In this document: one piece after another, positions 1,847 through 16,786 of the stretch
Layout of the letters: each line of letters opens with the position of its first letter
How positions within the stretch are numbered: position 1 is the first letter of the stretch
Virus record (IMG/VR): IMGVR_UViG_3300009002_000522
Coordinates: 1 to 23,186 of that record
Strand: one strand, 5' to 3'
Length of the DNA: 23,186 bases
Origin: a virus
Made by a program: the position numbers and the translations under genes
The notes under the pieces: model-generated
Told to the model about the DNA's origin: nothing
The model's database searches: none
The model's input: the letters and a program-made list of their open reading frames with translations, nothing else

Positions 1847-2332
1847 TTAGTAGTTAAGTACGCAGTAATCCATATCTACTGTTATGGTTAGTTCTGCTAC
1901 TTCAGAGTTACTCCAATCGAAGTCTCCTTGGGACATTGATGTTATAAATGCTCCTTTAATTACCCATTCAGAAACGATGTCTCCTACTGGGCCTAGTACG
2001 TTTAGTGTTAGATCTTTCTTATAGAAGTCTGAATAACCAGCTCTACCGGTTACTGATTCGTATGATAGACGAGCCCAGTCCATTACTTTTTGAGCTCCAG
2101 AAGGTGTAATTGGATCATATAATGTCATATCCATTGTACCCCATTCTCTTTTTCCACGAATCTTTCTATAAGTGTTAATATGATCGAGTTTTATTGATTC
2201 ATCCTCGAACGAGGGAGCAGAAACTTGCTTAATCATGAAAGATGGTATTGCATCGATATACATGATAAATCTATTCTGTACCTTTGGTTCAAAGGCCTGA
2301 AACATTACTTCAGAAGGTGATAATACTGCCAT
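1847..2332 (-). CDS. Tail tube protein, T4 gp19-like
   Basis: This 161-aa protein is the size of T4 gp19 (163 aa). It starts with an FEPKVQNRFIMYIDAIPSFM segment (about residues 14-33), then QVSAPSFEDESIKLDHIN, a KREWGTMDMTLYDPITPSG stretch around residues 61-79, and a C-terminal MSQGDFDWSNSEVAELTITV segment. This order (n.F.m.i.gip.f.ik.v..P, W..m.vtlyD...ps....v..W, .fdws....i.i...dyc) is the gp19 family pattern. Hexamers stack into the inner tube of the contractile tail. It lies directly downstream of the sheath gene, the usual T4-like order (18-19), and is closed by the terminator at 1801-1825. The leader is A/T-rich with no Shine-Dalgarno sequence and carries an ATATTTATA motif. Confidence 0.95.
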   Translation of the reverse strand: MAVLSPSEVMFQAFEPKVQNRFIMYIDAIPSFMIKQVSAPSFEDESIKLDHINTYRKIRGKREWGTMDMTLYDPITPSGAQKVMDWARLSYESVTGRAGYSDFYKKDLTLNVLGPVGDIVSEWVIKGAFITSMSQGDFDWSNSEVAELTITVDMDYCVLNY

Positions 2333-2369: not shown

Positions 2370-4124
2370 TTAAGCCGTAAATGTTGCTCCAGTAGGCTCG
2401 ATTGTAAAGTCAAGAACTATGAATTCAACTGTCTTAGCTGGTTGAATAAATATCTGACCGATCAATTGATTTCTGTCGATTACGTCGGCTGTATTGTTTG
2501 ACTCGTCCATTACAATTCTAAAAGCGTAAAGTCCTTGTCTTTGTACTACTGATTCTAGGAACGGATTAACTTGTGATAAGAAATTGTTTCTAGTATTAAT
2601 AGTATTTTGTTCAAATACTAAAGTTCTTGATACATCGTTCACAAACTTCTTAAGTTCTATTAAGAGACGTCTTACATTTACTCTATCAAGTGCTGATTTC
2701 TTTTTCTGTAAGGTCTTCTGACCGAATACTGAAATACCAGCTCCTGGGAATGTAGCAATTGGGTTAACATTTGCATTATATAGAGTATCTCTTTGAGTTC
2801 TAGTTAATTTTCTTTCTGCTTGAATTACGTCTGAAATTCCTCCTCTAGTTAAACCTGCTGGTGCAAACCATGGTGCTGCTGCATTGTCTGTGAATGCATA
2901 TACTCCTGGGATTACTACTGATGCAGGAATCCATACATTTTTACCTGTAGAAGATTGAGTCTGTAACCAAGGCCAGTAGGTTGCTGTAAATGAACTATTT
3001 ACTGTACTAGCTGCTGCTGTTACGTTAGATACTGTAGCTCCGTACTGCTCAAGATCTATTACTGCTATAGTGTCTCCTCTAGTTTCTGCTAAAGAGATAA
3101 TTGAATCTAATTGTGTTTTATGTGTACCGAAGTCATATATAAGACCTGGTGCTGATATAATATTGAAAGCATACTCGTCTTTATTACCTAGTAGAGAAAT
3201 ACTATCTACGTAGTTAGCTCCTACTAATCCCTGAGTATCTGTATTTGTAATATCACCAAAGTATTTATCTCCAGCATTTCCATTAGTTCCTGTTGCTCCG
3301 TGGAATGAACCAGACTGTGCAACTGGAAGAGATCCTGAATAAGATATGTTACTGTTGTCACTACCTACTGTTAAACCATCAGTTCCAACATAATTTAATG
3401 TTTGGTTATTAACTGCTGATATTCTTACGAAGTTAGACTGGTTAACAAATTCTCCAGTAGTTTGGATATAAACGTTTCCGTCTCCGTCTGTAGTTTTAGA
3501 CTTAGTTTGGTTACCTACAACTCTTTCTATATAGTTTCCTGAGTTAGGATCTAAAGATAGGTCGTTGAAAGTTTCTAGTATTACTTTATTTTTAGCGCTA
3601 TCATCTCCTCTTCGTACTGTTAAAGTAAAAGTTCCTGTACCGTTTTGTATGTTGGAAATTTCGTACCTTAAATTATCAGCTGATCCAGATTTAAGTGATC
3701 CATCACTATTTTCTGATCCAGCATCACTTGCTCCAGTTGAGTTATTAAAGATTGATCCTTTACCAACTGTCTCTAAAGTAAATGGGTTATTAAGCGAACC
3801 TGTAGCTGCTGTAATATCTGTACTAGAACCAACTGAGTAAGATCCAGAAGCTACTCTAGTAACTAATACTGATCCTCCTCCTTGATTGAAGTATGATTTT
3901 ACTGCAAGAGACGTTAGGTATTCTTGTTTTGTCGAACCAGATTCGAATGTAACTCCGAATATACGTTGATATTGCCCGTATGAGGTAACCAGTGTTGGAT
4001 CCTCAACTGGTCCTTTTACGGTAGGACCTAGGATAGCTGCACCAGCTTCTACGGCTGCTGGAGCGATAAAGGAAATATCATTTTCTCTGGTTAATACACC
4101 TGGGGAGATTAATGTTTCTGCCAT
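2370..4124 (-). CDS. Contractile tail sheath protein, T4 gp18-like
   Basis: This 584-aa protein begins with the sheath N-terminus ISPGVLTREND (residues 6-16) and a VEAGAAILGPTVKGPVEDPT segment (25-44). Residues about 100-300 form a Ser/Gly/Thr/Asn-rich variable region that fits the surface-exposed protuberance domains of gp18. The conserved core resumes at IISAPGLIYD (322-331) and continues through PASVVIPGVYAFTD (400-413). The C-terminal domain contains VNVRRLLIELKKFV (482-495) and ends in VMDESNNTADVIDRNQLIG (538-556), IFIQPA and EFIVLDFTIEPTGA. This is the classic phage sheath C-terminus, which donates strands to the neighbouring subunit. It polymerises around the tail tube and contracts on infection. 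A gap of 111 nt upstream holds possible promoter and operator elements. Confidence 0.97.
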   Translation of the reverse strand: MAETLISPGVLTRENDISFIAPAAVEAGAAILGPTVKGPVEDPTLVTSYGQYQRIFGVTFESGSTKQEYLTSLAVKSYFNQGGGSVLVTRVASGSYSVGSSTDITAATGSLNNPFTLETVGKGSIFNNSTGASDAGSENSDGSLKSGSADNLRYEISNIQNGTGTFTLTVRRGDDSAKNKVILETFNDLSLDPNSGNYIERVVGNQTKSKTTDGDGNVYIQTTGEFVNQSNFVRISAVNNQTLNYVGTDGLTVGSDNSNISYSGSLPVAQSGSFHGATGTNGNAGDKYFGDITNTDTQGLVGANYVDSISLLGNKDEYAFNIISAPGLIYDFGTHKTQLDSIISLAETRGDTIAVIDLEQYGATVSNVTAAASTVNSSFTATYWPWLQTQSSTGKNVWIPASVVIPGVYAFTDNAAAPWFAPAGLTRGGISDVIQAERKLTRTQRDTLYNANVNPIATFPGAGISVFGQKTLQKKKSALDRVNVRRLLIELKKFVNDVSRTLVFEQNTINTRNNFLSQVNPFLESVVQRQGLYAFRIVMDESNNTADVIDRNQLIGQIFIQPAKTVEFIVLDFTIEPTGATFTA

Positions 4125-4177: not shown

Positions 4178-4247
4178 ACCTATAAAGGTGAGTGTACGTA
4201 TTCCTATATAAATAGGTAAAAGAACTGAAGAAGTGCTATATAGGTTT
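4178..4247. repeat. Three spaced CCTATA/TATAGG dyad elements before the sheath gene
   Basis: On the minus strand three related dyads occur: ACCTATATAG (about 4237-4246), ACCTATTTATATAGG (4203-4217) and ACCTTTATAGG (4179-4189). Their centres are about 26-32 nt apart. The middle one can form a 5-bp stem with a four-base loop but has no U-tract, so it does not look like a terminator. The first overlaps the stop of the coiled-coil gene. They may be operator sites or secondary structure between the modification operon and the tail genes. Confidence 0.35.
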
Positions 4248-4487
4248 AAAAACTCCTGATATTATGTCTACTGTGCCTCTACCGTACTTTTTTTCTAGAC
4301 CTTTTGCAACTTCTGATTCTCTTGTTTTAAGTTTAAAGTAATAATCTTCTGCTCTTTCTTTTCTTCTTTCGAGCTCTAATTTACTAATGTTAATCTTACC
4401 AAGTTCTTCAGTAATCATTCTACTGCTTTTATCTATACCTCTAAGTACTCCTATTTCTTCTTCAGAAAGTTTTAGTTCTTTATTCAT
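4236..4487 (-). CDS. Small coiled-coil protein of unknown function
   Basis: This 83-aa charged protein is predominantly helical. Heptad-like spacing runs through residues about 8-66 (SEEEIGVLRGID, ITEELGKINISKLELERRK). It ends with KKYGRGTVDIISGVFKP, a YGxGTxxxxxGxF tail seen in many small proteins of marine T4-like phages, as far as I can recall. It has no signal peptide or membrane segment. The start codon follows directly on the stop of the upstream radical SAM gene (TAA then ATG), so it is translationally coupled and is the last gene before the sheath promoter region. A structural or chaperone role is possible; no function can be assigned. Confidence 0.7.
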   Translation of the reverse strand: MNKELKLSEEEIGVLRGIDKSSRMITEELGKINISKLELERRKERAEDYYFKLKTRESEVAKGLEKKYGRGTVDIISGVFKPI

Positions 4488-5702
4488 TTATATAACGTTT
4501 TTATTAATATAAGGTTTAAAAATATTACTCAGCTCAGGAAAAGTCTTTTCAAACTCTTCTTTTCTATTTACATCTAAAAAATCATTAACTTTAAAAAATT
4601 TATTGAACGATTCAATAGGAGCTGAGTTTTTGTTCATGAATTCTACCGTAGTATACACTTGTTCTTTAACTTCTTGTAAATCTATTGACTCTGCATAGCT
4701 CATTAATTTTTCAGTTATCTTACCTTTAAAGTTATTAGGTATACATTTAACTGAATAGTAGAGTGGCCAACTAACTTGATTAAAGAATAACGGCATGTTA
4801 GGAAAAGTTAAAGTAAAAAAGTCACTTACCTCTCCTAAATCTAATATATTAAGGACTGACACTGTAACACATATGTCTAACCTATAGTTAAGTTTATCTT
4901 TAGTGGCATCATTCCACTTATTCATATTTTTAAGTACTTCTACCCAGTCCCCATGATGTCTAATGTAATTAAACTTGTCTTCTATTCCATCAATACTAAA
5001 ACTAATAGTAGTATGTTTAAATTCGTCTAGTATTTTTACGTATTCTTCACTAAATATAGAACCGTTAGTATTAAAATGAAGTCTTATATTTTTACTATAG
5101 CCCATTCTAATTAACTCTTTAAGAAACTCCCATTGTTTTTTTACTAAGAAAGGTTCTCCTCCGTACATATCTATAGTTTCTAATGTTGGAGCTACTTCAT
5201 AAACCGATTTCCAGAATAGACTATCATCTTCATAACTTTTATACATTTTCTTAACGTACGAATTATACTCTTTATCTGTTTTGTCGTCGAATCTAAGTTT
5301 TTTATCTTCCTTATACCATTTTATACTAGCTTCTATACCGCACATACGGCATGCAAAGTTACAAGTGTTACCTAAATTAAGCTCTAAAAACCTTACAGTA
5401 TTAATTAATTTTTTCTCTCCAAAATTTCTAGTATCTCTTATTCTTTTACTTTCAATACCTGCATCTTCTTCTTTCCAACATCTTGTACATTCAACCGGTC
5501 TTTCACCCTTGTTAAATTGTTTTCTTAAATCAGATAAAGTTTTATTTTTAAATACGTCTGGTAATGTAGTAGAATTAACGTTTACTTTTTTACCTTCTTC
5601 GTCTTTATAGTCTATATTAGGATCAAAGTAACAGCAAGGTTGAGTAGTACCGTAGTTAGTTACTCTAAGACCACTTTCAATATGTACACATCTTATACTC
5701 AT
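4488..5702 (-). CDS. Radical SAM protein with N-terminal twitch domain (copy 6 in transcription order)
   Basis: This 404-aa protein carries the radical SAM cluster motif CNFACRMC (Cys114, 118, 121), which binds the 4Fe-4S cluster that cleaves SAM, and the GGEPF motif at 181-185, which contacts SAM. In front of the barrel is an N-terminal twitch-like cysteine region: Cys5, the pair Cys23-Cys24, and Cys72/Cys75 in CTRCWKEED. These would hold an auxiliary Fe-S cluster. The C-terminus has the NRKEEFEKTFPEL motif shared by the paralogues. It belongs to the CC subgroup with the genes at 5699 and 6958. The FC.LPW motif at the extreme N-terminus is degraded here (RCVHIES). It overlaps the upstream gene by ATGA, and an AAAGGTGA sequence before the ATG makes it one of the few genes with a Shine-Dalgarno sequence. 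Its substrate is unknown. Confidence 0.93.
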   Translation of the reverse strand: MSIRCVHIESGLRVTNYGTTQPCCYFDPNIDYKDEEGKKVNVNSTTLPDVFKNKTLSDLRKQFNKGERPVECTRCWKEEDAGIESKRIRDTRNFGEKKLINTVRFLELNLGNTCNFACRMCGIEASIKWYKEDKKLRFDDKTDKEYNSYVKKMYKSYEDDSLFWKSVYEVAPTLETIDMYGGEPFLVKKQWEFLKELIRMGYSKNIRLHFNTNGSIFSEEYVKILDEFKHTTISFSIDGIEDKFNYIRHHGDWVEVLKNMNKWNDATKDKLNYRLDICVTVSVLNILDLGEVSDFFTLTFPNMPLFFNQVSWPLYYSVKCIPNNFKGKITEKLMSYAESIDLQEVKEQVYTTVEFMNKNSAPIESFNKFFKVNDFLDVNRKEEFEKTFPELSNIFKPYINKNVI

Positions 5703-6958
5703 ATTAACTCACCTTTCAAAGCATTAAACAACTCAGGGAAATGATCGTTCATTTTTTCTCTTCTCAATTTATCTACTGCATTGGTAACTTTAAAAAATTT
5801 AGATATTTCATTATTATAAGGAGAGTTATAATATCTACCATAAAAATCATGATATAGTTCACTACTTAATTTATCTTTTATACTATCTATTTTTTGCTGT
5901 CTTATATTCTGTGGTATAACAGTAGCATTTTGGTATGCAGGAGCATGTACGTGATTAGGTATAATTCTTGGTATCTGACCAGTACCGTCTAATTTATATA
6001 ATCCTTCTTCTACTAAATATTGAGATAATTCTTCGCAATATAAGAAATTGTAAGCACTTATAGTCTGAGTAATAGTATAATTAAAGTCAAATCTTTCTAT
6101 AAATTTTTTAATATTATCTATAGTCAACTTAAAATTACTTAACTTCCTTATGTATGCATTCCTTTCCCATATATCGTCCAGGCTAAAACTTATATATACA
6201 TTATGAAAATTTTCTAATTTTTCTAAAACAGGTATTAGTTTTTCAAAATTATAATTACCGTTAGTTATGTAAAATATATCTATACCTTTAGCAAGGTCAT
6301 CTTCTACTAATCTTTCTAATAAGTAGAAATGCTTTTGTACTAAGAAAGGTTCTCCACCACTTATGTGTAATTGACGTATATTAGGACTATTAGATATTAA
6401 CTTATCATAAAATTGTTGATCCTCTACCCAATCGTAGTTAGACCACTTACTATTTTTTACCTTATCAAAATTACTAGGTAGAGGTACCTTATCTTTTAAT
6501 TTATAGTAATCATCTATCCAAGAAGTAGATGACTCTGCATTACAGGAACGACATTTTAAATTACAAAAGTTACCTAATCTTAATTCTATATTAGATAAGT
6601 CTACATCTATACTCCCATCTGCGTTTGTTATTTCATCAAAGTCTACATCAAATACTGAATCTCTAACTCTTTTTGATCTTCCTCCTGATTCTTCTACATC
6701 CCAGCAGGTCTTACATGCTAAAGGTTTTTTTCCTTCTAGCATCTCTTTTCTAATAGTCTTATAACTGTCTGAATTAATTATATCTTCCAGAGGGTCAGTT
6801 GCTACATTATGTATTCTAAACTCAGCATCTACTCCAGTAGTAGCTTGTGATCCAATATAGTTATGGTCAGATACACAGCATATAGAGCAGTTACCGTGGG
6901 GGTGTACACTTAAATGCTTCCATGGTAAATCACATATAAATCTTTCTTCTTTTAGCAT
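5699..6958 (-). CDS. Radical SAM protein with N-terminal twitch domain (copy 5)
   Basis: This 419-aa protein opens with FICDLPWKHLSVHPHGN (Cys9), then CSICC (Cys24, 27, 28) and CKTCWDVEESGGRSKR (Cys82, 85), the typical order of N-terminal twitch radical SAM proteins. The catalytic motif is CNLKCRSC (Cys132, 136, 139), followed by SGGEPFLV with GGEP at 201-204. The C-terminal motif is LRREKMNDHFPEL. The N-terminal region would hold an auxiliary Fe-S cluster next to the SAM-cleaving one. Such enzymes abstract hydrogen from peptides or small molecules, and no sequence feature here identifies the target. It overlaps the upstream gene by one base (TAATG) and the downstream gene by four (ATGA). Confidence 0.94.
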   Translation of the reverse strand: MLKEERFICDLPWKHLSVHPHGNCSICCVSDHNYIGSQATTGVDAEFRIHNVATDPLEDIINSDSYKTIRKEMLEGKKPLACKTCWDVEESGGRSKRVRDSVFDVDFDEITNADGSIDVDLSNIELRLGNFCNLKCRSCNAESSTSWIDDYYKLKDKVPLPSNFDKVKNSKWSNYDWVEDQQFYDKLISNSPNIRQLHISGGEPFLVQKHFYLLERLVEDDLAKGIDIFYITNGNYNFEKLIPVLEKLENFHNVYISFSLDDIWERNAYIRKLSNFKLTIDNIKKFIERFDFNYTITQTISAYNFLYCEELSQYLVEEGLYKLDGTGQIPRIIPNHVHAPAYQNATVIPQNIRQQKIDSIKDKLSSELYHDFYGRYYNSPYNNEISKFFKVTNAVDKLRREKMNDHFPELFNALKGELI

Positions 6959-8235
6959 TAAAGTTTACTTTTTCCTATACTGTTATACCATTCAGTATAA
7001 TAAGGATATATTTCTAAAAAATTCTCATTACGACCTTTATCTATTTTATCCGTCATAGATTTTAATTGAGCATATATTTTGTTTACATTATCTTCTGGGC
7101 TTTCATCCATAAACTTAAATATACTGTCATATTTAATTTTTAATTCTTCTTGCTCTCTTCCTTCAAATTTTTCTAAGTGTTTACTGTATAGGTACTTTAC
7201 TTTATCTTTTAATTCTATAGGTAGTATATTAATATTGTAATATAAAGGATTAGTTAAAATATTATTTAATTGAATATGAAATATGTCTAATCCTAATTCT
7301 ACCATTCTATCAATAAATGTAGGTATATGGAATACGTTCATTATGCTGGTAGTACAACTAACGTGAAAGTTTAAACCTTCATCTATACATTTCTTTATAT
7401 TAGCCTCTACTACAGGCCACTTTGTACCTTTTCTTTCGTATTCAGCTACTTCGTTTATACCGTCTATTGAAGCAAATATTGCTACATTATCATTATTTAC
7501 TTTTCTAAAAGGTTCCCATATTTTTAAATTATCCCATTTTTTAAATTTTAGGTAACCTAAATTTGTATTATACCTTATTCTAACATCAGTATGTCCAATC
7601 TCGATAAGCTTTTCCATAATATAATAATGCTCATCCATTATAAGAGGTTCACCTCCTGCAAAATAAATTTCTTCTACGTCTTCTATAAACTTATTGAGAT
7701 AGTATTGAATATCTTTTTTACTATAATCGTTTACATTTATTATTGCTTTAGGTAAATTAGAACCTCCAAATATTTTTATTTCGTCTTCAAACCATTTAGA
7801 ACTTAAATACGATCCGCACATCCTACATTTAAAGTTACAGAGGTTAGAAAATCTAAAGTCCCAATAAAGAAGTTCAAACTTTTCATTAGTTCCGTCTGGT
7901 TTGGTATGCTCTATTATATTAGGTATATGATGTTTGTAATGTCTATTAGTAGAAGTTCTAGTACTATCTAATCCGTTCCTTTCCTGCTGGTAGCATTTTC
8001 TACAATTGTCATGCTTCTTACCTAATAGCATATCTTTGCGAATGTCTTTCATTCTAGCAACATTCCATAGTTCTTCTAGAGTGTTATCCTTCATATTACC
8101 TAACTCTTCTCTATAGTCAGTTAAACAGCAAGGATATACATTACCGTTGGGCCAAGTATTAAGGTGAATCCAAGGAAGGATACAGAATGTGGGGCTAATT
8201 TGATCCCCTGGAGCTAGTAATTTAGTTTCTGACAT
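6958..8235 (-). CDS. Radical SAM protein with N-terminal twitch domain (copy 4)
   Basis: This 425-aa protein shows the most canonical N-terminus of the set: FCILPWIHLNTWPNGNVYPCC (Cys18, 36, 37), then a WNVARMKDIRKDMLLGKK stretch and CRKCYQQERNG (Cys78, 81). The radical SAM motif is CNFKCRMC (Cys133, 137, 140), and AGGEPLIM follows with GGEP at 194-197. The C-terminus carries GRNENFLEIYPYYTEWY, a divergent form of the shared R.E.F...FPEL motif. It is grouped with the two downstream copies by the paired Cys-Cys. Spacing to the upstream gene is one base, so expression is coupled. The enzymatic target is unknown. Confidence 0.94.
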   Translation of the reverse strand: MSETKLLAPGDQISPTFCILPWIHLNTWPNGNVYPCCLTDYREELGNMKDNTLEELWNVARMKDIRKDMLLGKKHDNCRKCYQQERNGLDSTRTSTNRHYKHHIPNIIEHTKPDGTNEKFELLYWDFRFSNLCNFKCRMCGSYLSSKWFEDEIKIFGGSNLPKAIINVNDYSKKDIQYYLNKFIEDVEEIYFAGGEPLIMDEHYYIMEKLIEIGHTDVRIRYNTNLGYLKFKKWDNLKIWEPFRKVNNDNVAIFASIDGINEVAEYERKGTKWPVVEANIKKCIDEGLNFHVSCTTSIMNVFHIPTFIDRMVELGLDIFHIQLNNILTNPLYYNINILPIELKDKVKYLYSKHLEKFEGREQEELKIKYDSIFKFMDESPEDNVNKIYAQLKSMTDKIDKGRNENFLEIYPYYTEWYNSIGKSKL

Positions 8236-8236
8236 A

Positions 8237-9574
8237 TTATATATTTTGGAACCAATCGTTAAATTGAACTGGCATAAATTGTTTTATAGGTTTTTCTCTA
8301 CGTCTAGCGTATTGAACTGTAAAGTTTTTAAAGTCGTTAGCTTTATTTTTATAACTATCTTCGTCTTCATAAGCTTTATCTACATTTCTAAGGTATACTA
8401 ATAGCCTATTGTAATGATTGATTTCCCATTCGTGCATCCAATCTTTAGATGGAATTAATACCTTTTCTATTTTATAGGCTAGATCATTTTTAATTTCTTT
8501 TGGTAATATATTCATACTTTGAAAAGAAGGAAATCTTAAAATATTAACTGACATATAAAGCATTTCTTTAGTGCCTGCTTGTTTTCTCCAGCCAATTATC
8601 TTTTCTAGAAACTTATCTGTAGTCCAGACACTCAATGCGCTTAGAGTCATCATAATATGTACTGCTCTTATCTGAGGTGCCGCTAATAATTTAGTAATAT
8701 TTCTCTCCCATATATCCCAATCAAAGCCATCTCTAACAAATTCTTGATTTCTACCAAAAGATTCTGCACTAGTGTAAATATCGAATGCTTTAAATTTTTT
8801 TGCTGATTCTATTAATGTATTTAACCTATCTTCTGGCATTATAAGATTACTATTAACTGCAAAATCGAATGTATCATTATCACACATGTCCAATAGCTTC
8901 CAAAAAGAAGGTGACCTAGCAGGTTCTCCTCCTGATACTCTAAGTTCTTGTAATCCTCCTCTAATTGAAGGAAACCATTCAAAAAACTTCTTTATAAATT
9001 CGTTATCTTCGTTTTTATGTCCAAAAGGCATTGCATGAGAACCGTTATTAGCAAAAGTATGACCTCCTTTAGTTTCCATTCCTTTGTATGGACCATTCTT
9101 ATTAATATCTTGAGCCCAAGTAGAACTAAACTCAGCATTACAGTAACTACAAGCTAAATTACATAAGTTATCAAAAGCAAGTTCTACTGTTTTAGGAATA
9201 ACGTTATGGTCCCAAGGCTTATCTTTAATCTTAACTATTTCATCAGTAGTATATCTATGTGATTGGTATACTCTATCACTATATACATCTTTTTTACCTT
9301 TAGCAGCGTCTTCTACTCTCCAACAGTATCCACATTCTTTAGGTCTATCACCTTCAAGCATCTCTTTACGAGCAGTTTTTTTAAATTCTGTATTATGAAG
9401 GGCTGATGGATTGTTTTGCAGTTCCATTCTAGGTATATGGTGGGCTAAAGGATGGTGACATGATGCTGTTCGTCCATTACCTAACCATATCGATACATTA
9501 TACCACTTAGCAGCACAAAAGGAAGGTGAGATTGAATCTATTAGCTTTTTAGTTTCTTCTAAGCTTCTTGACAT
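8237..9574 (-). CDS. Radical SAM protein with modified (CHH) twitch region (copy 3)
   Basis: This 445-aa protein has FCAAKWYNVSIWLGNG at the N-terminus (Cys20). The paired cysteines of the CC subgroup are replaced by SCHHPLAHHIP (Cys39, His40, His41). CGYCWRVEDA (Cys81, 84) follows. The catalytic motif is CNLACSYC (Cys138, 142, 145), with SGGEPA at 214-219. A conserved ALHNTxxxKxxRxxMLxGxRPxxC stretch links it to the copies at 9559 and 11563. The C-terminus has YARRREKPIKQFMP. It overlaps the upstream gene by 16 nt. The Cys-to-His change suggests altered ligation of the auxiliary cluster, or its loss, compared with copies 4-6. Confidence 0.93.
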   Translation of the reverse strand: MSRSLEETKKLIDSISPSFCAAKWYNVSIWLGNGRTASCHHPLAHHIPRMELQNNPSALHNTEFKKTARKEMLEGDRPKECGYCWRVEDAAKGKKDVYSDRVYQSHRYTTDEIVKIKDKPWDHNVIPKTVELAFDNLCNLACSYCNAEFSSTWAQDINKNGPYKGMETKGGHTFANNGSHAMPFGHKNEDNEFIKKFFEWFPSIRGGLQELRVSGGEPARSPSFWKLLDMCDNDTFDFAVNSNLIMPEDRLNTLIESAKKFKAFDIYTSAESFGRNQEFVRDGFDWDIWERNITKLLAAPQIRAVHIMMTLSALSVWTTDKFLEKIIGWRKQAGTKEMLYMSVNILRFPSFQSMNILPKEIKNDLAYKIEKVLIPSKDWMHEWEINHYNRLLVYLRNVDKAYEDEDSYKNKANDFKNFTVQYARRREKPIKQFMPVQFNDWFQNI

Positions 9575-10929
9575 AACTTGTAAAATTGTTTAAGGTCAGG
9601 AAAAGCAGCATCAAATGATGTTCCTCTTCTTTTATCGTATTCTTGAGTAAAATTAAAAAAATCTTTACGGTTAATATTTAATTTACTGTCTTCATCCGTA
9701 TTATTATACATATGATCTACTAGCCTATTTAGCTGGTCGATTTGAGTTGCTGTTAGGCATTCATCTTTATCTAAACCTGAATCGTAATGACGTTCTTTAA
9801 TTAATATGTCAACAGATTCTTTAAACCTATCTTTCGATTTTATATCTAAGTTAGTTATAGCTAAGAATTCAGGATAACGTAAGTAGTTTGTCATAAACTG
9901 TACCTTGTCAAAATTTACGGTTTTATTATGTACCTTCCTTAATGATAAAAGATATCTTATAAAGTCACAGTACGTACCTACGCTAGTTAAATTAACTGTT
10001 GTCATATTGGCTACTAAAACGTTATTAGTCTCATTTAATATTCTTTCAAAATTCTTTTGCCATTTTTTATAGTTAGTACCAAATCGTATATATTCATTAG
10101 CTAGTCCAGTTGCTTCCCCGCTAGAAAAGACTTGTATTTCTTTTACCTTACCGTCTAGTTCGTTTAACTTGTAAATTAGCTTATCTATTAATGCATCTGG
10201 TACTAATAAATTAGTATTAACACAGAAGACTAATTTAGGATTAGGATTTTCTATAACTTTATCTATAACTTTCCAAACATCTTTAGAGAGTAAAGGTTCT
10301 CCTCCTGTAAGTCTCAAGGTATGTAACTTAGGAGCAAGTTCCGGCCACCATTTCCAGAAAGCTTCTACATAGGGATTATCTTCACTATATTTGTATGGCA
10401 TTTTATCTTGAGACTTAAACCAATTTAAATCGTTAAAATTAGTAGAAGTAGGGTACCCACCATGCTGCTCTATCTCTTGCATCCAAGAAGTAGATATATC
10501 AGGTGAACAGTAAGCACATTTTAACTGACAAGCACTGCTAAAGCTAATCTCAAGATAGCTAGGCTCTATATCAGCTGATTTTCGTTGAACTATTTCCTCT
10601 AGTTTAACTGTCGACATTTCATGAGCTGATTTGTATACTCTATCGCTTATATAGTCCTTCCCTAAGTCCTCTATTTTCCAGCAGTACTCACATTCAGAAG
10701 GTCTTTCTCCTCTAAGCATTTTTCTCATTTGAGACTTCTTATGCTTTGTATTGTGAAGAGCTTTAGGGTTTTCTAGTACTTCTTCTAAAGGTATTTTATG
10801 AGGTGTAGGATGGTGACAAGAATGATTATAACCTGTATGTAAGTATAAAGTTAACTGTGCCCATTTAGCTATACAGAAGCTAGGGCTTATTTCATTTAAC
10901 TTTTCTCTTATAGAATAAAATTCTTGCAT
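9559..10929 (-). CDS. Radical SAM protein with modified (CHH) twitch region (copy 2)
   Basis: This 456-aa protein has FCIAKWAQLTLYLHTGYN (Cys19), SCHHPTPHKIP (Cys38) and CEYCWKIED (Cys80, 83). The radical SAM motif is CQLKCAYC (Cys134, 138, 141), and TGGEPLLSKD has GGEP at 209-212. A block around 185-200 (NPYVEAFWKWWPEL) just before GGEP is shared almost unchanged with the gene at 11563, so these two are the closest paralogues. The C-terminal motif is KRRGTSFDAAFPDL. Its ATG overlaps the stop of the LamG-like gene by one base (TAATG), and it runs 16 nt into the next copy. The role is as for the other copies: SAM-dependent radical chemistry on an unknown substrate. Confidence 0.94.
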   Translation of the reverse strand: MQEFYSIREKLNEISPSFCIAKWAQLTLYLHTGYNHSCHHPTPHKIPLEEVLENPKALHNTKHKKSQMRKMLRGERPSECEYCWKIEDLGKDYISDRVYKSAHEMSTVKLEEIVQRKSADIEPSYLEISFSSACQLKCAYCSPDISTSWMQEIEQHGGYPTSTNFNDLNWFKSQDKMPYKYSEDNPYVEAFWKWWPELAPKLHTLRLTGGEPLLSKDVWKVIDKVIENPNPKLVFCVNTNLLVPDALIDKLIYKLNELDGKVKEIQVFSSGEATGLANEYIRFGTNYKKWQKNFERILNETNNVLVANMTTVNLTSVGTYCDFIRYLLSLRKVHNKTVNFDKVQFMTNYLRYPEFLAITNLDIKSKDRFKESVDILIKERHYDSGLDKDECLTATQIDQLNRLVDHMYNNTDEDSKLNINRKDFFNFTQEYDKRRGTSFDAAFPDLKQFYKLCQEA

Positions 10930-11576
10930 TATAATATTTTTCCTATCAAATTATAATTGTTTGTATAATCCCAAACTTGATAATCAGTTCTATTTACAAA
11001 ATCATATACTCCAGTAGAATTATATTTAAGCAACTCTTCTGTTGTATATGGTTTAATACTTAAAAATTCTTTAGTAACAAAAAACTGCTTAAGTTCTATT
11101 TCACTATAATTGAGATTAAACCCATTATGAGGAAAATTACCTGAGCCTAGTATAATATGAGATTCATCTGACTTTAATAACTCTTCATTTTCATCAAATT
11201 GAACTTCAATTATTACTTTTCCGTCTATGCTTAAGTCTAAAAAGTTTTTTTGTTTACTATACCTTATATAGAATCTATGAAAATCCTTATCTAAACTATA
11301 ATCCGAAAATTCGTAGTATGCTTTTTCTTCTCCGTTATTAACTGTCTTTATTATAAATAAAACATTATTATTTTCTTTCTCTATATCTAGACCTAAATAA
11401 TTTGGTAATCTTGAAAAAATAGTTCGTTTATCTGAGCCTTCTGATAGAAGTTTAAATTCTATGCCTAGAGTAAAGTCGTTGTCTCCTTGAAGAGAATTAT
11501 TTATATCTTCTTTACAGAGCCCGTGACTATATTTTTTAGGCCATACTATCCAGGGTTCACCTTTATTTATTATCAT
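10929..11576 (-). CDS. Stand-alone LamG/concanavalin A-like jelly-roll protein
   Basis: This 215-aa protein is predicted to be almost all beta-strand: DFTLGIEFKLL (34-44), then alternating strands including FHRFYIRYSKQKNFLDLSIDGKVIIEVQF, and a late SEIELKQFFVTKEFLSIKPYT segment. This resembles the LamG pattern (f.i...fk, w..i.i.y....l.lyidGk.v, .i...ri.n..ls..e). No signal peptide or enzyme motif is visible. Such folds bind glycans or proteins. It sits between the two most similar radical SAM genes, overlapping the upstream one by 14 nt and the downstream one by 1 nt. The LamG-like segments inside the two GT7-like enzymes upstream suggest a shared glycan target. The fold call is by pattern and not certain. 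Confidence 0.6.
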   Translation of the reverse strand: MIINKGEPWIVWPKKYSHGLCKEDINNSLQGDNDFTLGIEFKLLSEGSDKRTIFSRLPNYLGLDIEKENNNVLFIIKTVNNGEEKAYYEFSDYSLDKDFHRFYIRYSKQKNFLDLSIDGKVIIEVQFDENEELLKSDESHIILGSGNFPHNGFNLNYSEIELKQFFVTKEFLSIKPYTTEELLKYNSTGVYDFVNRTDYQVWDYTNNYNLIGKIL

Positions 11577-12948
11577 AGTAAAATTCTGCTAGTTCAGGAA
11601 AAGTTTTTAAAAAATTAGTACCTCTTCTTTTATCATGTTCATCCACAAATTTAACTAAATTGGATCTCTCTAATTTTAATTTATCTTCATCTATGTTAGA
11701 TTTACTCCAATCGTAAATTCTTTTCATTTTATTAATTTCTATGGTAGTAAATCCTAACTGAGTGTGATTAAATACAGGTGAACTTTTAAAGTACATAAGC
11801 TCAGCATTTGATCTAATAAGTTCTTTATGGCTGTCAGTTAATAGTTGAACTGTTTGATGATGAGGGTACCTTAAGTAAGATGTATCTAAATGAATTGCAT
11901 GCTTCCAATATCTCTTATCGTTAGCATATTCTTTTTTAAGTTTATATACTCCATCAATTAACTTATTGTAAGTAAACGGAGAAAACATATTATACGTAGA
12001 CATTAATACTACAGTAACTTTTGGAAGTTTATCTAATAGAGTATTTACATTATCCCAAAATTTATTGAATACTAATCCATTTCTAATATATTCTGCCTGT
12101 TCTCCCCATCCGTCTACTGAGGTAAATATAATAAACTCGTTTACTCTTTCTTCCTGAATTATTTTATCTACTTTTTCTACAAACTTGTTAAATAGGTTAT
12201 CCGGTATGCCGAGATTAGTATTTACTGAAAGGTTTAACTTGCGGTTAGGTTCTTTTGCTTCTAAAATAAAGTCTAATACTTTCCAGGTATCTTTAGAAAG
12301 TAGAGGTTCTCCTCCAGTTATTCTAAATGTATGTAAATCGTTATACAATTCAGGCCACCATTTCCAAAATGCTTCAACATAAGGATTATATTCTGATTTT
12401 AAATAAGGTATGTGTCCTTTTTTTTCTAAAGTATCTAACCTGCCAAATTTATCATCAGTTGGATAAGGACCTTTAGATCTTATTTCATCCATCCATTTAG
12501 AAGAGAACAAAGGACCGCAGTATGAACATTTAAAATTACAAGTATTAGAAAAAGATACTTCTACATACTTAGGGTTATAGTCCGAATTCCATGGTTTAGA
12601 AACTATTTCATCAAAGTGGTCCATAGACCATGGTTCTGATGATTTAAGTACTCTATCGGAAAATCTATCAGAATTATCTTCTACGTTCCAGCAGTAATCA
12701 CACTCTTTAGGTCTCTTGCCTTTGAGCATACTCATCCTTTGACGCTTCTTATGTCTTGTATTATGAAGCGCAGTAGGATTTATTTGTATTTCTTTAAGAG
12801 GTATTTTATGAGGAGCAGGGTGGTGACAAGAATGAGTAAGTCCATTATGTAAATGCATAGTAACTTGACTCCACTTAGCTATACAAAAGCCGCAGCCTAC
12901 ATTGTCAAGCTTATCCTTGACATCTTTAAAAGCTACAGGTAACTTCAT
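11563..12948 (-). CDS. Radical SAM protein with modified (CHH) twitch region (copy 1, first transcribed)
   Basis: This 461-aa protein is the first radical SAM gene of the array in transcription order. It has CGFCIAKWSQVTMHLHNG (Cys19, 22), SCHHPAPHKIP (Cys41) and CDYCWNVED (Cys83, 86). The catalytic motif is CNFKCSYC (Cys137, 141, 144), with TGGEPLLSKD having GGEP at 212-215. It shares NPYVEAFWKWWPEL and ALHNTRHKKRQR with the copy at 9559. The C-terminus KRRGTNFLKTFPEL is almost identical in pattern to that copy. It overlaps the upstream GT7-like gene by ATGA, tying radical SAM chemistry to glycosylation in one transcript. Confidence 0.94.
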   Translation of the reverse strand: MKLPVAFKDVKDKLDNVGCGFCIAKWSQVTMHLHNGLTHSCHHPAPHKIPLKEIQINPTALHNTRHKKRQRMSMLKGKRPKECDYCWNVEDNSDRFSDRVLKSSEPWSMDHFDEIVSKPWNSDYNPKYVEVSFSNTCNFKCSYCGPLFSSKWMDEIRSKGPYPTDDKFGRLDTLEKKGHIPYLKSEYNPYVEAFWKWWPELYNDLHTFRITGGEPLLSKDTWKVLDFILEAKEPNRKLNLSVNTNLGIPDNLFNKFVEKVDKIIQEERVNEFIIFTSVDGWGEQAEYIRNGLVFNKFWDNVNTLLDKLPKVTVVLMSTYNMFSPFTYNKLIDGVYKLKKEYANDKRYWKHAIHLDTSYLRYPHHQTVQLLTDSHKELIRSNAELMYFKSSPVFNHTQLGFTTIEINKMKRIYDWSKSNIDEDKLKLERSNLVKFVDEHDKRRGTNFLKTFPELAEFYYDNK

Positions 12949-14366
12949 AGTTCTATATTGAGCATTTTAGCCCATGGAGTAAAAACTTCTTCGCTAATTA
13001 ATTTATACTTTAATTGTTTTATACCGTCATCCTTGTAATTAATTTCATCTTGCTGCATACCAAGTACATATCTTCTTTCATTAGCAGCTGTAGTTTCACC
13101 TTTTACAAACTTACCGTCTACTATACCTTCGTCTTTATGAGGTAAGCATCTCATTCTACCTTCTACTCTATGAGGAATAATAGAGTTAGGAACTTTTAAC
13201 CTTTCTTCTTTAGTTTCTATATTAAAAGTGTCTAATTTAGATTTAGGATTATTAGCGTCATAATTTGTAATTAATCCATTTTCTGGGAGTTTAATATGTA
13301 AGTTTTTAACTTCTATAGGTTTAAGTGCTCTATCCCAAGAGTAAACTCTAGCAATATCTCCTTTAAAAAATTTATGAGTACTTTCTACAGATTCTGATGG
13401 GGAAGTTCCTAAATACATACTGTTAGTTCCGTACTTTTTTAACTTACCTGCAAATCTAAAAGGAGACGGGCTACCAAATCCACCTTTAGAGTCTACTTCA
13501 GTACCGTTTAAGTAAAGGTGGGATAAATGATTTTCTTCATCTAATACCGCTGTTAACCAGCTCCATTGATTATCGTATCTTTTAAGCCACATATAATTAT
13601 GTTTATTAAAAGAATTCCAGTAAGTTAAGGATAGAGCTCTAGAGTTATTGAATGAAAATCCATAATCATAACCAGGTATTCTTAAAATAGGGTACTCAAC
13701 ATATGCTCTTTTTTTATCTCCTATAAGGAATATTTTATTTTTATCTAATGTATGATATGCTCTTACTAACACAGATATAGTATGTGACTTAGAAGTAAGG
13801 TTTCTCATACTCATATCAAAAGGAAACTTTGCGTATGAATCTATACCATTAAAGTTAAGGTACTTCTGGTTAACATTGTCTATATCTAGCCAAGTATCGT
13901 TAGTAAGTCCTTCTTTATGGCATCTCCAAAAAAGATCATCGTCCTCCATACCCCAGTCCCAGTATCCGTTACTGTACCCATTTGTAGCTTCGACTTGTTC
14001 TTTAGTAAAAAGTACTGCTCCTCCAAAATATTCATGATATTTAAGTTTATAGTCCATTTGAGATATCTGAGTAGCTATATGTCTAGGTGCTTTTTCAGGG
14101 TATGAGTAGTCTGCTCCTCCGTCTTCTTCAGGTATCATATCTATATCATGCCAAACTATATAATCACACCCATCTTCAAATGCATATTTTGCTCCTATAT
14201 TTTTTGTTGCACCTCTATTGAACAGTTTATCATCTACTTGATGAACAATATATATCTGAAAGTCTATACCTTGGTTTTTAAGGTATTTACCTATTTTCGG
14301 TATGAATTCATGCATATGTAGCTCTCGATTCCTATAGGGAACACATACACCTAATTTGTGACTCAT
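12945..14366 (-). CDS. GT7-like beta-1,4-galactosyltransferase with inserted LamG domain (second copy)
   Basis: This 473-aa protein matches animal beta-1,4-galactosyltransferases. VPYRNRE (9-15) is the donor-site motif, FNRGATKNIG (49-58) matches FNRAKLLNVG, DIDMIP (74-79) is the DxD-type metal site, and YFGGAVLFTKEQ (113-124) and the GYWDWGMEDDDLFWR segment (134-148) follow the family. Residues about 165-395 are a LamG-like jelly-roll (LNFNGIDSYAKFP at start, FFKGDIARVYSWDRALKP near the end). After it the GT7 C-terminus resumes: GRMRCLPHKD (403-412), then NERRYVLG and DDGIKQLKYKLIS. His410 aligns with the metal-binding His347 of bovine B4GALT1, while the Met344 position is Cys407. It probably transfers a hexose from UDP-sugar; acceptor unknown. 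It overlaps both neighbours by ATGA. Confidence 0.85.
   Translation of the reverse strand: MSHKLGVCVPYRNRELHMHEFIPKIGKYLKNQGIDFQIYIVHQVDDKLFNRGATKNIGAKYAFEDGCDYIVWHDIDMIPEEDGGADYSYPEKAPRHIATQISQMDYKLKYHEYFGGAVLFTKEQVEATNGYSNGYWDWGMEDDDLFWRCHKEGLTNDTWLDIDNVNQKYLNFNGIDSYAKFPFDMSMRNLTSKSHTISVLVRAYHTLDKNKIFLIGDKKRAYVEYPILRIPGYDYGFSFNNSRALSLTYWNSFNKHNYMWLKRYDNQWSWLTAVLDEENHLSHLYLNGTEVDSKGGFGSPSPFRFAGKLKKYGTNSMYLGTSPSESVESTHKFFKGDIARVYSWDRALKPIEVKNLHIKLPENGLITNYDANNPKSKLDTFNIETKEERLKVPNSIIPHRVEGRMRCLPHKDEGIVDGKFVKGETTAANERRYVLGMQQDEINYKDDGIKQLKYKLISEEVFTPWAKMLNIEL
13182..13874 (-). other. LamG-like insertion within GT7-like enzyme (residues about 165-395)
   Basis: This coding segment is placed between the EDDD catalytic segment and the metal-binding His segment. 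The typical LamG opening (L.FNG.DSY) and closing (F.GdI.rVY.wDrAL...E) patterns are visible. Boundaries are approximate to about 10 residues. Confidence 0.7.
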
Positions 14367-15766
14367 ATCTTAGCTATTATATGGTGGTAATTCTTAACAT
14401 TTATATAGTCTAACTCTCTGTGTCTACAATTAGTAAGTCCGTCTTTTTCATAGTTAGTTCTATTATTCTTAGCTTTTTCTAAATATACTTCTTGGTTTTC
14501 TCTACTTTTCCAAGATACCCAATATCCGTCTTTATATCCATTTTCATCGTGGGGTAAGACTTTAAATTTACCTTTTTTTCTATGAGGAATAGGTAGCTTA
14601 GTATCAAAAGTTAATGAAGTAGTTGTAAACTCAGTATTTTTGGTATATCCATTGTTTTCGTTTCCTGATAAGTCTAATACCATATTCTGGTTAGTAAATT
14701 TAAGGTCATAATATATCTTCATATCATTTCTGTTAAAGAATTCAAATAAACTCTTATTTATATTCCCTGATAAGTCATATATTTCTTTCTTATCTAATAC
14801 TTTATCAAAAACACAAAAAGTATCAATAGATCCTTTAAACCAATTCGGTTTCTTTTCTCTTTCAGGATTACCGGCTCCTAAAAACATATATTTACTTTTT
14901 TGTACTTTATACAGATCGTCGTAGGTATTACTTCCTACTTTTTCTCCATTTATATAAAAGTTTATTTCTCTAGGTTCTACTGTGTTGCATATAGTAACTA
15001 TAGCGTTATAAGTACCTTTAGGTAAATTAAGAGAAGGTATAGATATAGAGTCTAAGTTTTTCTTCCAAAATTGGAATGAAAAGTTTCCAAAAGAGTTATA
15101 AGTAACGGTGGTATCAAAACCTGGTATCGACCATATACTATATTCATCTATTATCTCTTCCATATTAGTAGGAGTATCATCTACTGTAAATGAAGTATAG
15201 ATGGAAAAGTCTTTCAATGAGTTTACTACATTAGGAACTACTATATAACTATCTTTTCCATTAAACTGAAGAGCTCTGTCTACTCTTCCTCTTTGGGTTA
15301 CTATTTTAGTATCAAGGTTAATATGGTTCTCTCTACATCTTAAGAGTAAGTCATCATCTTCAAATCCCCATCCATCGTACATATTTGAATATCCGTTTAT
15401 CTGTCTAAATATATTAGAAGGAAATAATGTTACTCCACCGAAGTATTCGTCAAACAAAGTACGAGATACATCATCAGGTAAATCGAATTCTGTTATTAAA
15501 TGAGTAGGTTTAGATTCATACGTATAGTCTGCCTCTACAGGTAGCATATCTATATCATGAAATACTACGTAATCACATCCTAATTCTTCAGCCTTTAGAA
15601 AACCTATATTTAATAACTTACCTCTATTGAAGTCATCTCGATCACTTTGCTCAACTATAATGAGTTCGTAATCAATATTTAAATACTTAGTAATGTGTTC
15701 TCTAAAAGATTTAAGTTGATTAGGTCTGTCCCTATAAGGAACTATTAAACCTAATTTATGACTCAT
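14363..15766 (-). CDS. GT7-like beta-1,4-galactosyltransferase with inserted LamG domain (first copy)
   Basis: This 467-aa paralogue of the downstream gene has VPYRDRP (9-15), FNRGKLLNIG (46-55, very close to FNRAKLLNVG of B4GALT), HDIDMLP (70-76), YFGGVTLFP (108-116) and GWGFEDDDLLLR (132-143). A LamG-like jelly-roll of about residues 160-392 interrupts the domain. It starts at RALQFNGKDSYIVVP and has FYINGEKVG and WFKGSIDTFCVFDKVLDKKEI near its end. The GT7 fold resumes at KGKFKVLPHDENG, where His406 aligns with B4GALT1 His347 and Val403 stands at the Met344 position, then reads KDGLTNCRHRELD. Probable UDP-sugar transferase, cytoplasmic in the infected cell, substrate unknown. It overlaps the downstream gene by ATGA and the upstream 64-aa gene by 11 nt. 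Confidence 0.85.
   Translation of the reverse strand: MSHKLGLIVPYRDRPNQLKSFREHITKYLNIDYELIIVEQSDRDDFNRGKLLNIGFLKAEELGCDYVVFHDIDMLPVEADYTYESKPTHLITEFDLPDDVSRTLFDEYFGGVTLFPSNIFRQINGYSNMYDGWGFEDDDLLLRCRENHINLDTKIVTQRGRVDRALQFNGKDSYIVVPNVVNSLKDFSIYTSFTVDDTPTNMEEIIDEYSIWSIPGFDTTVTYNSFGNFSFQFWKKNLDSISIPSLNLPKGTYNAIVTICNTVEPREINFYINGEKVGSNTYDDLYKVQKSKYMFLGAGNPEREKKPNWFKGSIDTFCVFDKVLDKKEIYDLSGNINKSLFEFFNRNDMKIYYDLKFTNQNMVLDLSGNENNGYTKNTEFTTTSLTFDTKLPIPHRKKGKFKVLPHDENGYKDGYWVSWKSRENQEVYLEKAKNNRTNYEKDGLTNCRHRELDYINVKNYHHIIAKI
14591..15289 (-). other. LamG-like insertion within GT7-like enzyme (residues about 160-392)
   Basis: The segment is inserted at the same place as in the downstream paralogue. 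A second partial strand set (IYYDLKFTNQNMVLDLSGNENNG region, about 350-374) looks like the start of a LamG repeat or a linker. Boundaries are approximate. Confidence 0.68.
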
Positions 15767-15950
15767 TCTTCTTTTCGGGTTCTCCCTTTTCTAAAAATTC
15801 TGATAAATAATACTGGATTCTTTCTCCCCATTCTTCTTTATCTACTTCTTCAAACCATAGAACAAGAATAGCTAAGCTTTTAGATATTTTTTCTAGAGCT
15901 TGAACCTTACGTTCTTCAAGTAAAGCTTCTTCTACTTTATTTTGACTCAT
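15756..15950 (-). CDS. Small charged helical protein, unknown function
   Basis: This 64-aa protein reads as helical and acidic, with an amphipathic centre (ALEKISKSLAILVLWFEEVD, residues 18-37) and a Lys/Glu-rich tail. The central hydrophobic stretch is too short and charged at its edges to be a confident membrane segment. It overlaps the upstream GT gene by 4 nt and the downstream GT7-like gene by 11 nt, which supports a real, translationally coupled gene. No family is recognised. It could be an adaptor or a small regulator of the neighbouring enzymes. Confidence 0.6.
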   Translation of the reverse strand: MSQNKVEEALLEERKVQALEKISKSLAILVLWFEEVDKEEWGERIQYYLSEFLEKGEPEKKNES

Positions 15951-16786
15951 ATTGTAACTATTTTATTTTTTAGTGTATCCCAATGAGGATAATCTTTATA
16001 CTCAATATACGAAAGTTCTTTCATATCCTCAACTAAAAACTTAAGATTATTAGTATCTATTTTAAAATTATTTTTCTTTATAGCATCGTACATTATTTTA
16101 TATTCATCAGAAAAAGAATAGTCTTTTTTGTTATCTGCTACTTTTTTTATTCTTTCAACACATGTACTGTCCCATTTAAAATGATGCACTTGTGTAAAGC
16201 ACTCTTCTATCGGCATACGTCTTTTATGTTCAGTCCCCCAACTATTAGTACCGTCATTAAAAGATGCGTAATGTTGACCGGAAGTAACTTTTTGATAACC
16301 TTTCATTAACGTAACTTTGTTAGGACATGCTCCAGACATTGGATGTCTAAAGAAACCTGCTAAAGGAAAAGTTCTGTGTAAATCTGTCTCTCTCGTCACT
16401 TTAGGAAAAGTACCATCTATACCTATTCGATCTAAGAACCCTCCTGTAACAAACTCATAACCATTTCTCTCACAATTCTCAATGATATCTTCGATAGGTT
16501 CTGGGTATACCTGTAGTTCATCATCATCAGATACGATCCACCAGTCATTAGGTTTAGTTTGCTTAATAGTATTGTATATTTCCGTAACTCTTTCCCAGTT
16601 ATATTTAGGTTCGGTAAACACCATAAATGGTTCAATACCTAACTCTTCTATTTCCTCCAATATACCATCATCATCACTTTGACGATATACTGCTACATAT
16701 GCTTTATCTATAACATCTTCGTAATGTTTTAACATATGAGGTAATATATGTGTATTTTCTCCTACTACTGTAACTAAATTAGGCAT
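15947..16786 (-). CDS. Glycosyltransferase, GT2-like (GT-A fold)
   Basis: This 279-aa protein starts with MPNLVTVVGENTHILPHMLKHY, which matches the first beta-strand and helix of GT2-like enzymes that begin by describing an encounter site (v.vvrnE...l...l.hy). The acidic metal site is WWIVSDDDEL (82-91), and later there is GFLDRIGIDGTF and a histidine-containing VHHFKWDSTC segment. It probably uses a nucleotide-sugar donor and acts on a glycan or protein in the infected cell. It overlaps the upstream methyltransferase by 8 nt. The donor and acceptor cannot be read from the sequence. Confidence 0.8.
   Translation of the reverse strand: MPNLVTVVGENTHILPHMLKHYEDVIDKAYVAVYRQSDDDGILEEIEELGIEPFMVFTEPKYNWERVTEIYNTIKQTKPNDWWIVSDDDELQVYPEPIEDIIENCERNGYEFVTGGFLDRIGIDGTFPKVTRETDLHRTFPLAGFFRHPMSGACPNKVTLMKGYQKVTSGQHYASFNDGTNSWGTEHKRRMPIEECFTQVHHFKWDSTCVERIKKVADNKKDYSFSDEYKIMYDAIKKNNFKIDTNNLKFLVEDMKELSYIEYKDYPHWDTLKNKIVTI

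Follow-up and report, generated by a model that had tools for sequence, protein, structure and literature searches.

A widespread phage array of N-twitch radical SAM genes, kept in conserved order and possibly involved in tailoring a fibre-linked glycan

Phage islands with many genes for radical S-adenosylmethionine (SAM) enzymes have been known since 2010, the accessible text of the first account giving phages CP220 and CPt10 as encoding 11 and 12 radical SAM proteins, with an interchangeable five-gene module and a putative amidinotransferase (PMC2853527). As far as the available portions of later papers go, the Aeromonas giant phage 332-Vera has a large structural cluster in which eight radical SAM genes accompany five tail-fibre genes (PMC12390700), the T4-like genome TARA_ERS488813_N000010 carries twelve (PMC5332604), pelagimyophage host-recognition clusters have gained radical SAM cassettes in an island of fibre and glycosyltransferase genes (PMC7029224), and in Tasman Sea phages radical SAM genes are prevalent and glycosyltransferases enriched (PMC7150976). 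Two further papers do not describe radical SAM arrays in the text accessible to us (PMC9301287, PMC10783043). Here we analyse a window of 23,186 bases, the whole stretch of DNA under study, which comes from an uncultured phage of marine type (IMG/VR record IMGVR_UViG_3300009002_000522) and in which six radical SAM genes of the N-terminal-twitch (N-twitch) subfamily lie head to tail on the minus strand, at 4488-12948. This array is a real and widespread variant of the known phage multi-radical-SAM island that we have not found described before. Islands of this general kind are familiar from CP220/CPt10, 332-Vera and the Tara T4-like genome; what appears new is a conserved order of N-twitch clades together with a core built on GT7-type glycosyltransferases that contain a LamG insert (GT7-LamG).

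The likeness to the described systems is partial. In CP220 two genes noted as nucleotide-diphospho-sugar transferases follow the module and a possible baseplate lysozyme lies about 3 kb before it. However, among 11 CP220 proteins tested, which include 6 of the genome's 11 radical SAM proteins, only CPT_0084 weakly matches the array profile, so that the proteins tested are not N-twitch enzymes. 332-Vera is a phiKZ-type phage and is compared by its published description only, while the accessible descriptions of TARA_ERS488813_N000010 and of the pelagimyophages include neither N-twitch membership nor a conserved order nor a GT7-LamG core. A tblastn search of cultured phages gave no match at E 1e-5 for the first clade A copy or GT7-LamG; the relatives that it did return are all distant and come from Vibrio phages and a single marine single-cell virus. 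The Vibrio phages KVP40 and K566 do have radical SAM genes that match the array profile, three in the KVP40 stretch and four in that of K566, at about 21-26% identity; this likeness rests on the array profile and not on the NF033640 cut-off used below. In these stretches no fibre or sheath is annotated and most genes are hypothetical. K566 and K567 give one match at E 6e-3 to the second clade A copy. In the open-licence literature, as far as its text was accessible, we found neither a conserved N-twitch order nor a GT7-LamG core described, and no function demonstrated for arrays of this type.

The six enzymes and the order of their clades

The six genes are intact open reading frames (ORFs) of 404-461 aa. 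Together with a 215-aa gene that interrupts them, they are joined by overlaps of 4, 1, 16, 1 and 14 nt and by a single 1-nt gap, which bears out the original prediction, made from the letters of the window alone, of six closely packed tandem paralogues. Pairwise identity among the copies is 19-45%. Against the subfamily model NF033640 (N_Twi_rSAM) all copies score 292.6-388.8 bits over nearly their full length, well above the curated cut-off of 170, as their proposed placement in the N-twitch family had foreseen; they also pass that of PF04055 (29.5), with 30.3-51.7 bits. In an alignment the CxxxCxxC and GGEP motifs and the C..C..CxxC motif of an N-terminal auxiliary cluster are invariant in all six, in agreement with the earlier view that every copy looks catalytically competent. 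The Pfam SPASM domain is called, at the N-terminus, in the three downstream copies (clades D, F and H); the three upstream copies (A, A and B) have a His-rich version of this N-terminal region without a SPASM call. The array family profile matches BtrN, a carbohydrate-tailoring twitch enzyme, in the auxiliary-cluster region only (E 0.0012 and 0.0026).

Models of two of the six copies were made with AlphaFold2, for the clade A gene at 11563-12948 (predicted local distance difference score, pLDDT, 92.8; predicted template modelling score, pTM, 0.90) and for the clade D gene at 4488-5702 (pLDDT 90.1, pTM 0.88). Both have a six-strand partial barrel from the cluster motif onward. The broken barrels that had been named beforehand as a sign against the prediction were not seen in these two confident models. 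Measured against the relative L088, the ratio of nonsynonymous to synonymous substitution (dN/dS) is 0.045-0.175 for all six genes, at dS values of 1.0-1.7 that are close to saturation, and all six are under purifying selection. Their motifs, the predicted fold of two of them and this selection suggest that the six genes encode active enzymes.

Viral contigs were scanned twice for relatives; the best 80 of at least 587 were retained from one scan and the best 80 of 534 from the other. The loci were therefore chosen by similarity to the array enzymes, and counts per locus should not be read as frequencies among phages. With the window there are 161 loci, or 120 after near-identical ones were collapsed (entries L001-L006, which are the window itself, were left out); flanks extend to at most 10 kb, the contigs are incomplete and genes were called as simple ORFs of at least 60 aa. 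At least three copies are present in 85 of the 120 non-redundant loci, at least five in 63 and at least six in 34, and 48 have a strictly tandem run of four or more. The opinion in the original prediction that six in a row is unusual is not supported, since many of the collected relatives hold 3-8 copies. That a multi-copy array is unique to this phage was likewise rejected. When 29 contigs were searched over their whole length, 1 to 21 family matches were obtained in each; in L087, a 54-kb near-twin of the window, the six matches are this array. The 346,856-bp contig of L033 has 21 N-twitch matches and the 155,922-bp contig of L016 has 19, many of them distant from the main array. A viral structure library added 31 relatives at E <=0.001, mostly from uncultured Caudovirales.

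A tree was built from 402 representatives, after seven rows shorter than 300 aa had been removed from 573, and was divided into clades by a rule that aims at roughly one copy in each locus. Gene order was not used in defining the clades, some of which have low support. The three radical SAM cysteines are kept in 402/402 representatives, and the N-terminal auxiliary cysteines are present in all representatives of clades A-H and K and variable in clades I and J and in small unlabelled groups. The order of clades A, B and C is concordant in 194 of 195 pairs (76 loci), a value reached by none of 2000 shuffles. Four or more of clades A-E are present in 51 loci, of which 41 have them in perfect order; here 487 of 501 pairs are concordant. 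Members of NF033640, a model whose name gives no reaction, here form ordered sets of distinct clades, and such separate clades in conserved order favour the earlier idea that divergence with retained motifs reflects a division of labour. Given the kept cysteines, the fixed order and the dN/dS values, an array made of pseudogenes or put together by chance was rejected. So was a duplication that occurred recently and only in this phage, because the copies fall in clades common to other phages and even the two clade A copies are only 45% identical to each other.

Two lineages, a variable slot and a promoter-like motif

The loci form two non-overlapping sets. Lineage 1 (85 loci, including the window) has GT7-LamG genes, lineage 2 (64 loci) has genes of families X6, X10 or X12, and 12 of the 161 loci have neither; these numbers, and the 58 and 37 loci used for fibre genes below, are not de-duplicated. 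Clades A, B and D span both sets, with only 2, 3 and 1 changes of set by parsimony, so that the two sets mostly inherit their copies separately from an old common stock. In 81 of the 85 lineage-1 loci a GT7-LamG gene is the direct neighbour of clade A. Upstream lie genes for a GT2-like protein, a methyltransferase and a small protein and, in 33 of the 58 loci with enough sequence, a fibre gene with an S74 domain at a distance of at most five genes. In lineage 2 a gene of family X14 lies at most four genes upstream in 33 of 37 loci and one of family c20 in 31 of 37. Both members of c20 tested have virion and tail-fibre PHROG matches; X14 has none. Family X10 is weakly like glycogenin/GT8 (E 0.0016), and X10 and X12 match each other (E 2e-24). 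X0, X6 and X12, which have no PDB match in a profile search, are presumed from a motif to be glycosyltransferase-like; the cluster names GT-like, SGNH and SDR are likewise given by motif unless a Pfam call is cited.

In the window the array does lie in a tail module, as had been stated, with sheath, tube and baseplate hub downstream and the S74 fibre upstream. Its wider linkage to virion genes held up in one respect and not in another. Fibre-like genes are the more usual neighbours and are joined by glycosyltransferase-like partners; closeness to the sheath is not general. A Pfam sheath match is present in 10 of the 29 contigs, at about 8 kb from the clade A gene in the window's twin, at 12 and 27 kb in two contigs and at 52-115 kb in seven. 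The nearest sheath from a cultured phage is that of Flavobacterium phage immuto, whose sheath, tube, hub and small pre-sheath gene match their counterparts in the window (Table 1), and this sheath-side kinship suggests a Flavobacteria-type host. The 33-kb immuto stretch has no match to the array radical SAM profile. Its annotated tail-fibre gene just upstream has no BLAST match to the window fibre, so that the evidence for an empty slot in immuto covers its sheath side only.

In lineage 1 the stretch past clade A is variable, and in the window it holds the five further radical SAM genes. One representative was scanned for each of 94 of the 95 families outside the radical SAM array that lie downstream of clade A (complete ORFs of at least 120 aa; the window gene at 753-1796 was left out). 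These matched 54 Pfam families, and among the 25 listed are NAD epimerase, RmlD, cytidylyl- and nucleotidyltransferase, dTDP-sugar isomerase, UDP-sugar dehydrogenase, carbamoyltransferase and other radical SAM proteins. Slot contents were compared between 17 array loci and 24 solo loci (clade A only or one more copy), which make up the 41 non-redundant loci of lineage 1 that extend 6 kb or more downstream. X0 occurs in 22 of 24 solo against 8 of 17 array loci (p 0.003), and cluster 18, which is DUF6071 by Pfam, in 14 of 24 against 1 of 17 (p 0.0008). Array loci thus hold fewer other island genes, though not none. Within the stretches covered the sheath is reached in 7 of 17 array and 0 of 24 solo loci.

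The consensus of the T4 late-promoter motif is TATAAATA. As such a motif it was rejected for the window, with 9 hits against 7.6 expected. Its reverse complement read in sense, TATTTATA, is intergenic in five of six cases in the window, where 578 of 23,186 bases are intergenic, and precedes the hub, tube, sheath and fibre genes. This test was post hoc, with lineage 1 and immuto serving as the check: lineage 1 has 229 sense copies of TATTTATA, of which 101 are intergenic (against 12 of 151 for the opposite strand), and all 10 sense copies in the immuto stretch are intergenic. A late promoter shared by these phages is a likely reading of the motif. From the fibre gene at 19398-21056 to the small gene starting at 4236 there is no gap longer than 18 nt and no intergenic motif, which suggests a single operon headed by the fibre and running through the array. 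The core is free of intergenic motifs in 70 of 85 lineage-1 loci and has at least one in 15. An Rfam scan of the window and immuto gave 0 matches.

Candidate substrates of the array

We propose, with about even confidence, that the six genes encode glycan-tailoring enzymes within a late, fibre-linked glycosylation island. We infer that the substrate is a sugar, that the fibre is the target, that timing is late and that the enzymes act in sequence, and the gene content of the island leans towards a glycan. The core of this island would consist of the methyltransferase, GT2-like, small acidic protein, two GT7-LamG and clade A genes, located after the fibre genes and followed by the variable cassette. 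A short glycan would be built by the transferases, with the LamG-type domains holding the acceptor or the glycan. Each radical SAM enzyme would then abstract hydrogen at one sugar position, resulting in oxidation, epimerisation, deoxygenation or rearrangement, and the N-terminal cluster might hold the substrate or pass an electron. The edited glycan would most likely end on the tail fibre and less likely on the host surface.

Several observations weigh against this proposal. The window has no recognised sugar-nucleotide synthesis gene. In 25 of the 58 lineage-1 loci with enough sequence no S74 gene lies within five genes upstream, and large contigs have extra family copies far from the main array. 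The glycosyltransferase label of the X families depends on a motif or, for X12, on kinship to X10, and a Pfam scan of single members of X0, X6, X10 and X12 gave no match. An excess of sugar-nucleotide-type genes in solo loci had to be dropped, since the difference is not significant (p 0.19), with such clusters in 17 of the 24 solo loci and 8 of the 17 array loci; the group consists of six clusters, of which one is untyped, one typed by eye and one an E1-dehydrogenase. In the 15 bacterial loci mapped, of 57 from one genome scan, most neighbours match no viral family. Finally, Foldseek ranks MgmA first (E 2.2e-4, TM < 0.4), an enzyme that modifies protein, and the VIA lists for both models are headed by radical SAM structures, with the peptide enzyme SkfB at the top, followed closely by further peptide enzymes and by enzymes acting on sugars or nucleosides. 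For the clade A model the VIA Z values are 14.2 for SkfB, 13.0 for BlsE, 12.8 for MoaA, 12.7 for both anSME (anSMEcpe) and SuiB and 12.2 for DesII; for the clade D model SkfB has Z 11.5, with a viperin-like enzyme, DesII, a sactipeptide enzyme, BlsE and anSME within 1. Structural neighbours of the predicted models do not separate sugar from peptide chemistry and, if anything, place protein and peptide enzymes first.

These structural neighbours, with anSMEcpe and SuiB close for clade A, speak for an alternative that we consider rather improbable though the strongest rival, namely that the enzymes modify protein directly, introducing cross-links, epimerised residues or other C-H changes on the fibre or a LamG protein and so hardening the adhesin, with the transferases acting separately or on the modified residue. 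The apparent co-operonic arrangement of array and fibre also speaks for it. However, the slot of related loci commonly holds sugar-type genes, no cysteine is conserved among 16 aligned members of the conserved small neighbour's family, and a PqqD-type domain over the cut-off was found in 0 of the 29 contigs, which are incomplete, with one match below threshold; island content and the lack of such a domain together lean against a classical ribosomally synthesised and post-translationally modified peptide (RiPP). Less probable still is an island that late in infection edits a glycan on the surface of the host (O-antigen or capsule), preventing progeny from sticking to debris or excluding rival phages, and that is inherited with the fibre. 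Island genes resemble surface-glycan genes, and in the accessible text this role is favoured by the authors of the pelagimyophage study for the glycosyltransferases of the host-recognition island (PMC7029224). Flippase, ligase and polymerase are not among the 25 of 54 Pfam families listed, which is weak evidence against this role, and the motif layout ties the array to virion genes, yet a late change of the surface is compatible with that layout.

A role in host cofactor, nucleoside or iron-sulphur metabolism during infection appears very unlikely to us. Fibre proximity and recurrent glycosyltransferase-like partners would be unexpected for it, although a metabolic benefit has been proposed for phage radical SAM genes, as stated in the accessible text of PMC2853527, and viperin and MoaA are among the structural neighbours. 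A-type iron-sulphur carriers are present in 9 of the 29 contigs, all with many copies of the family (9 of 20 contigs with at least four matches against 0 of 9 with at most two, p 0.027), but they may just load clusters. Their distribution fits working enzymes, in a comparison confounded by lineage and contig size. Hardly credible, lastly, is a decaying paralogue expansion of little function: copy number and cassette content do vary among loci, yet the low dN/dS of all six genes, the universal cysteines and the fixed order oppose it.

The glycan-tailoring proposal has a broader form, which we offer only tentatively. The fixed-order sets might be a virion-maturation assembly line of at least two phage kinds, in which five or six successive radical reactions would produce an edited sugar or side chain on the fibre, the cassette being inherited with the fibre. 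We know of no other virus with the adhesin chemistry that this would entail. The conserved clade order, the fibre-like genes and the two glycosyltransferase-like cores make an old curiosity a testable pathway. A product on the fibre would give phages a novel means of making or hiding an adhesin, one on the host a new kind of receptor editing, and either outcome would assign a substrate to this radical SAM subfamily.

Neighbouring genes and bacterial relatives

The features of the window are collected in Table 1. The gene that interrupts the array was originally described as LamG-like, a description that survives only at a distance. Its family, LamG27, lies between radical SAM genes in 25 loci and matches the small family LamG17 (profile E 6.6e-7), which in turn matches the LamG region of GT7 proteins (E 5.6e-12). 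There is no Pfam LamG call for the gene itself, and the direct match of LamG27 to LamG-bearing GT7 proteins is weak (probability 33%). The gene at 753-1796, between tube and hub, has no Pfam or PHROG match; in an alignment its C-terminal motif resembles X0 by eye (15-25% identity).

Table 1. Features of the 23,186-base window, in order of position
Feature	Position	Strand	Evidence
Sense TATTTATA in gaps before structural genes	719-726, 2349-2356, 4207-4214, 21089-21096, 21725-21732	-	Motif scan
Tail tube	1847-2332	-	phrog_4542; 75% identical to immuto
Tail sheath	2370-4124	-	phrog_23 E 6.1e-70; 63.5% identical to immuto
Small gene between array and sheath	4236-4487	-	38% identical to same-place gene of Flavobacterium phage immuto, E 2.4e-17
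N-twitch radical SAM, clade D, last gene of array, 404 aa	4488-5702	-	NF033640 303 bits; PF04055 51.7 bits; N-terminal SPASM PF13186; dN/dS 0.175
N-twitch radical SAM, clade F, 419 aa	5699-6958	-	NF033640 315 bits; N-terminal SPASM; dN/dS 0.109
N-twitch radical SAM, clade H, 425 aa	6958-8235	-	NF033640 389 bits; N-terminal SPASM; dN/dS 0.045
N-twitch radical SAM, clade B, His-rich twitch, 445 aa	8237-9574	-	NF033640 293 bits; motifs; dN/dS 0.055
N-twitch radical SAM, second clade A copy, 456 aa	9559-10929	-	NF033640 320 bits; dN/dS 0.048
LamG-like small protein between the two clade A genes, 215 aa	10929-11576	-	Family LamG27; distant profile matches
N-twitch radical SAM, clade A, constant member beside GT7-LamG, 461 aa	11563-12948	-	NF033640 338 bits; dN/dS 0.058
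GT7-type glycosyltransferase with LamG insert	12945-14366	-	PF13733, PF02709, PF13385 above cut-off
GT7-type glycosyltransferase with LamG insert	14363-15766	-	PF13733, PF02709, PF13385 above cut-off
Small acidic conserved protein beside GT7-LamG, 64 aa	15756-15950	-	Family of 64 members, 63 loci; 16 aligned members without a conserved cysteine
GT2-like glycosyltransferase	15947-16786	-	PF13704 E 1e-5, 26.4 bits, just below cut-off of 27.5; family near radical SAM genes in 71 loci
SAM methyltransferase	16779-17546	-	PF13578 41.2 bits; family near radical SAM genes in 62 loci
DUF6734-like protein	17530-18378	-	PF20508 E 4.4e-5, below cut-off
Tail fibre with S74 self-chaperone, upstream of array	19398-21056	-	PF13884; PHROG tail-fibre families; first gene past nearest upstream promoter-like motif (21089-21096)

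Forty of the 57 bacterial loci are labelled as Bdellovibrionota-type, Elusimicrobia or Flavobacteriales genomes, and 29 of the 57 have at least two profile matches, some of them weak. An N-twitch radical SAM protein from a Halobacteriovoraceae metagenome-assembled genome (MAG; L171:7962-9911) has a C-terminal extension that is weakly like a glycosyltransferase, the best PDB row being such an enzyme at E 0.31; the extension has no Pfam call, and this fusion is not used as evidence. Six strong N-twitch matches lie on a contig of a 'Rickettsiales' MAG (L201, NZHE01000012.1), together with an X6-like gene and further genes resembling radical SAM; this may be a misbinned phage contig. Three Elusimicrobia MAG contigs (L176, L177 and L179) encode tandem large proteins in which N-terminal extensions are joined to an N-twitch radical SAM region, with TPR repeats where these were scanned (L177).

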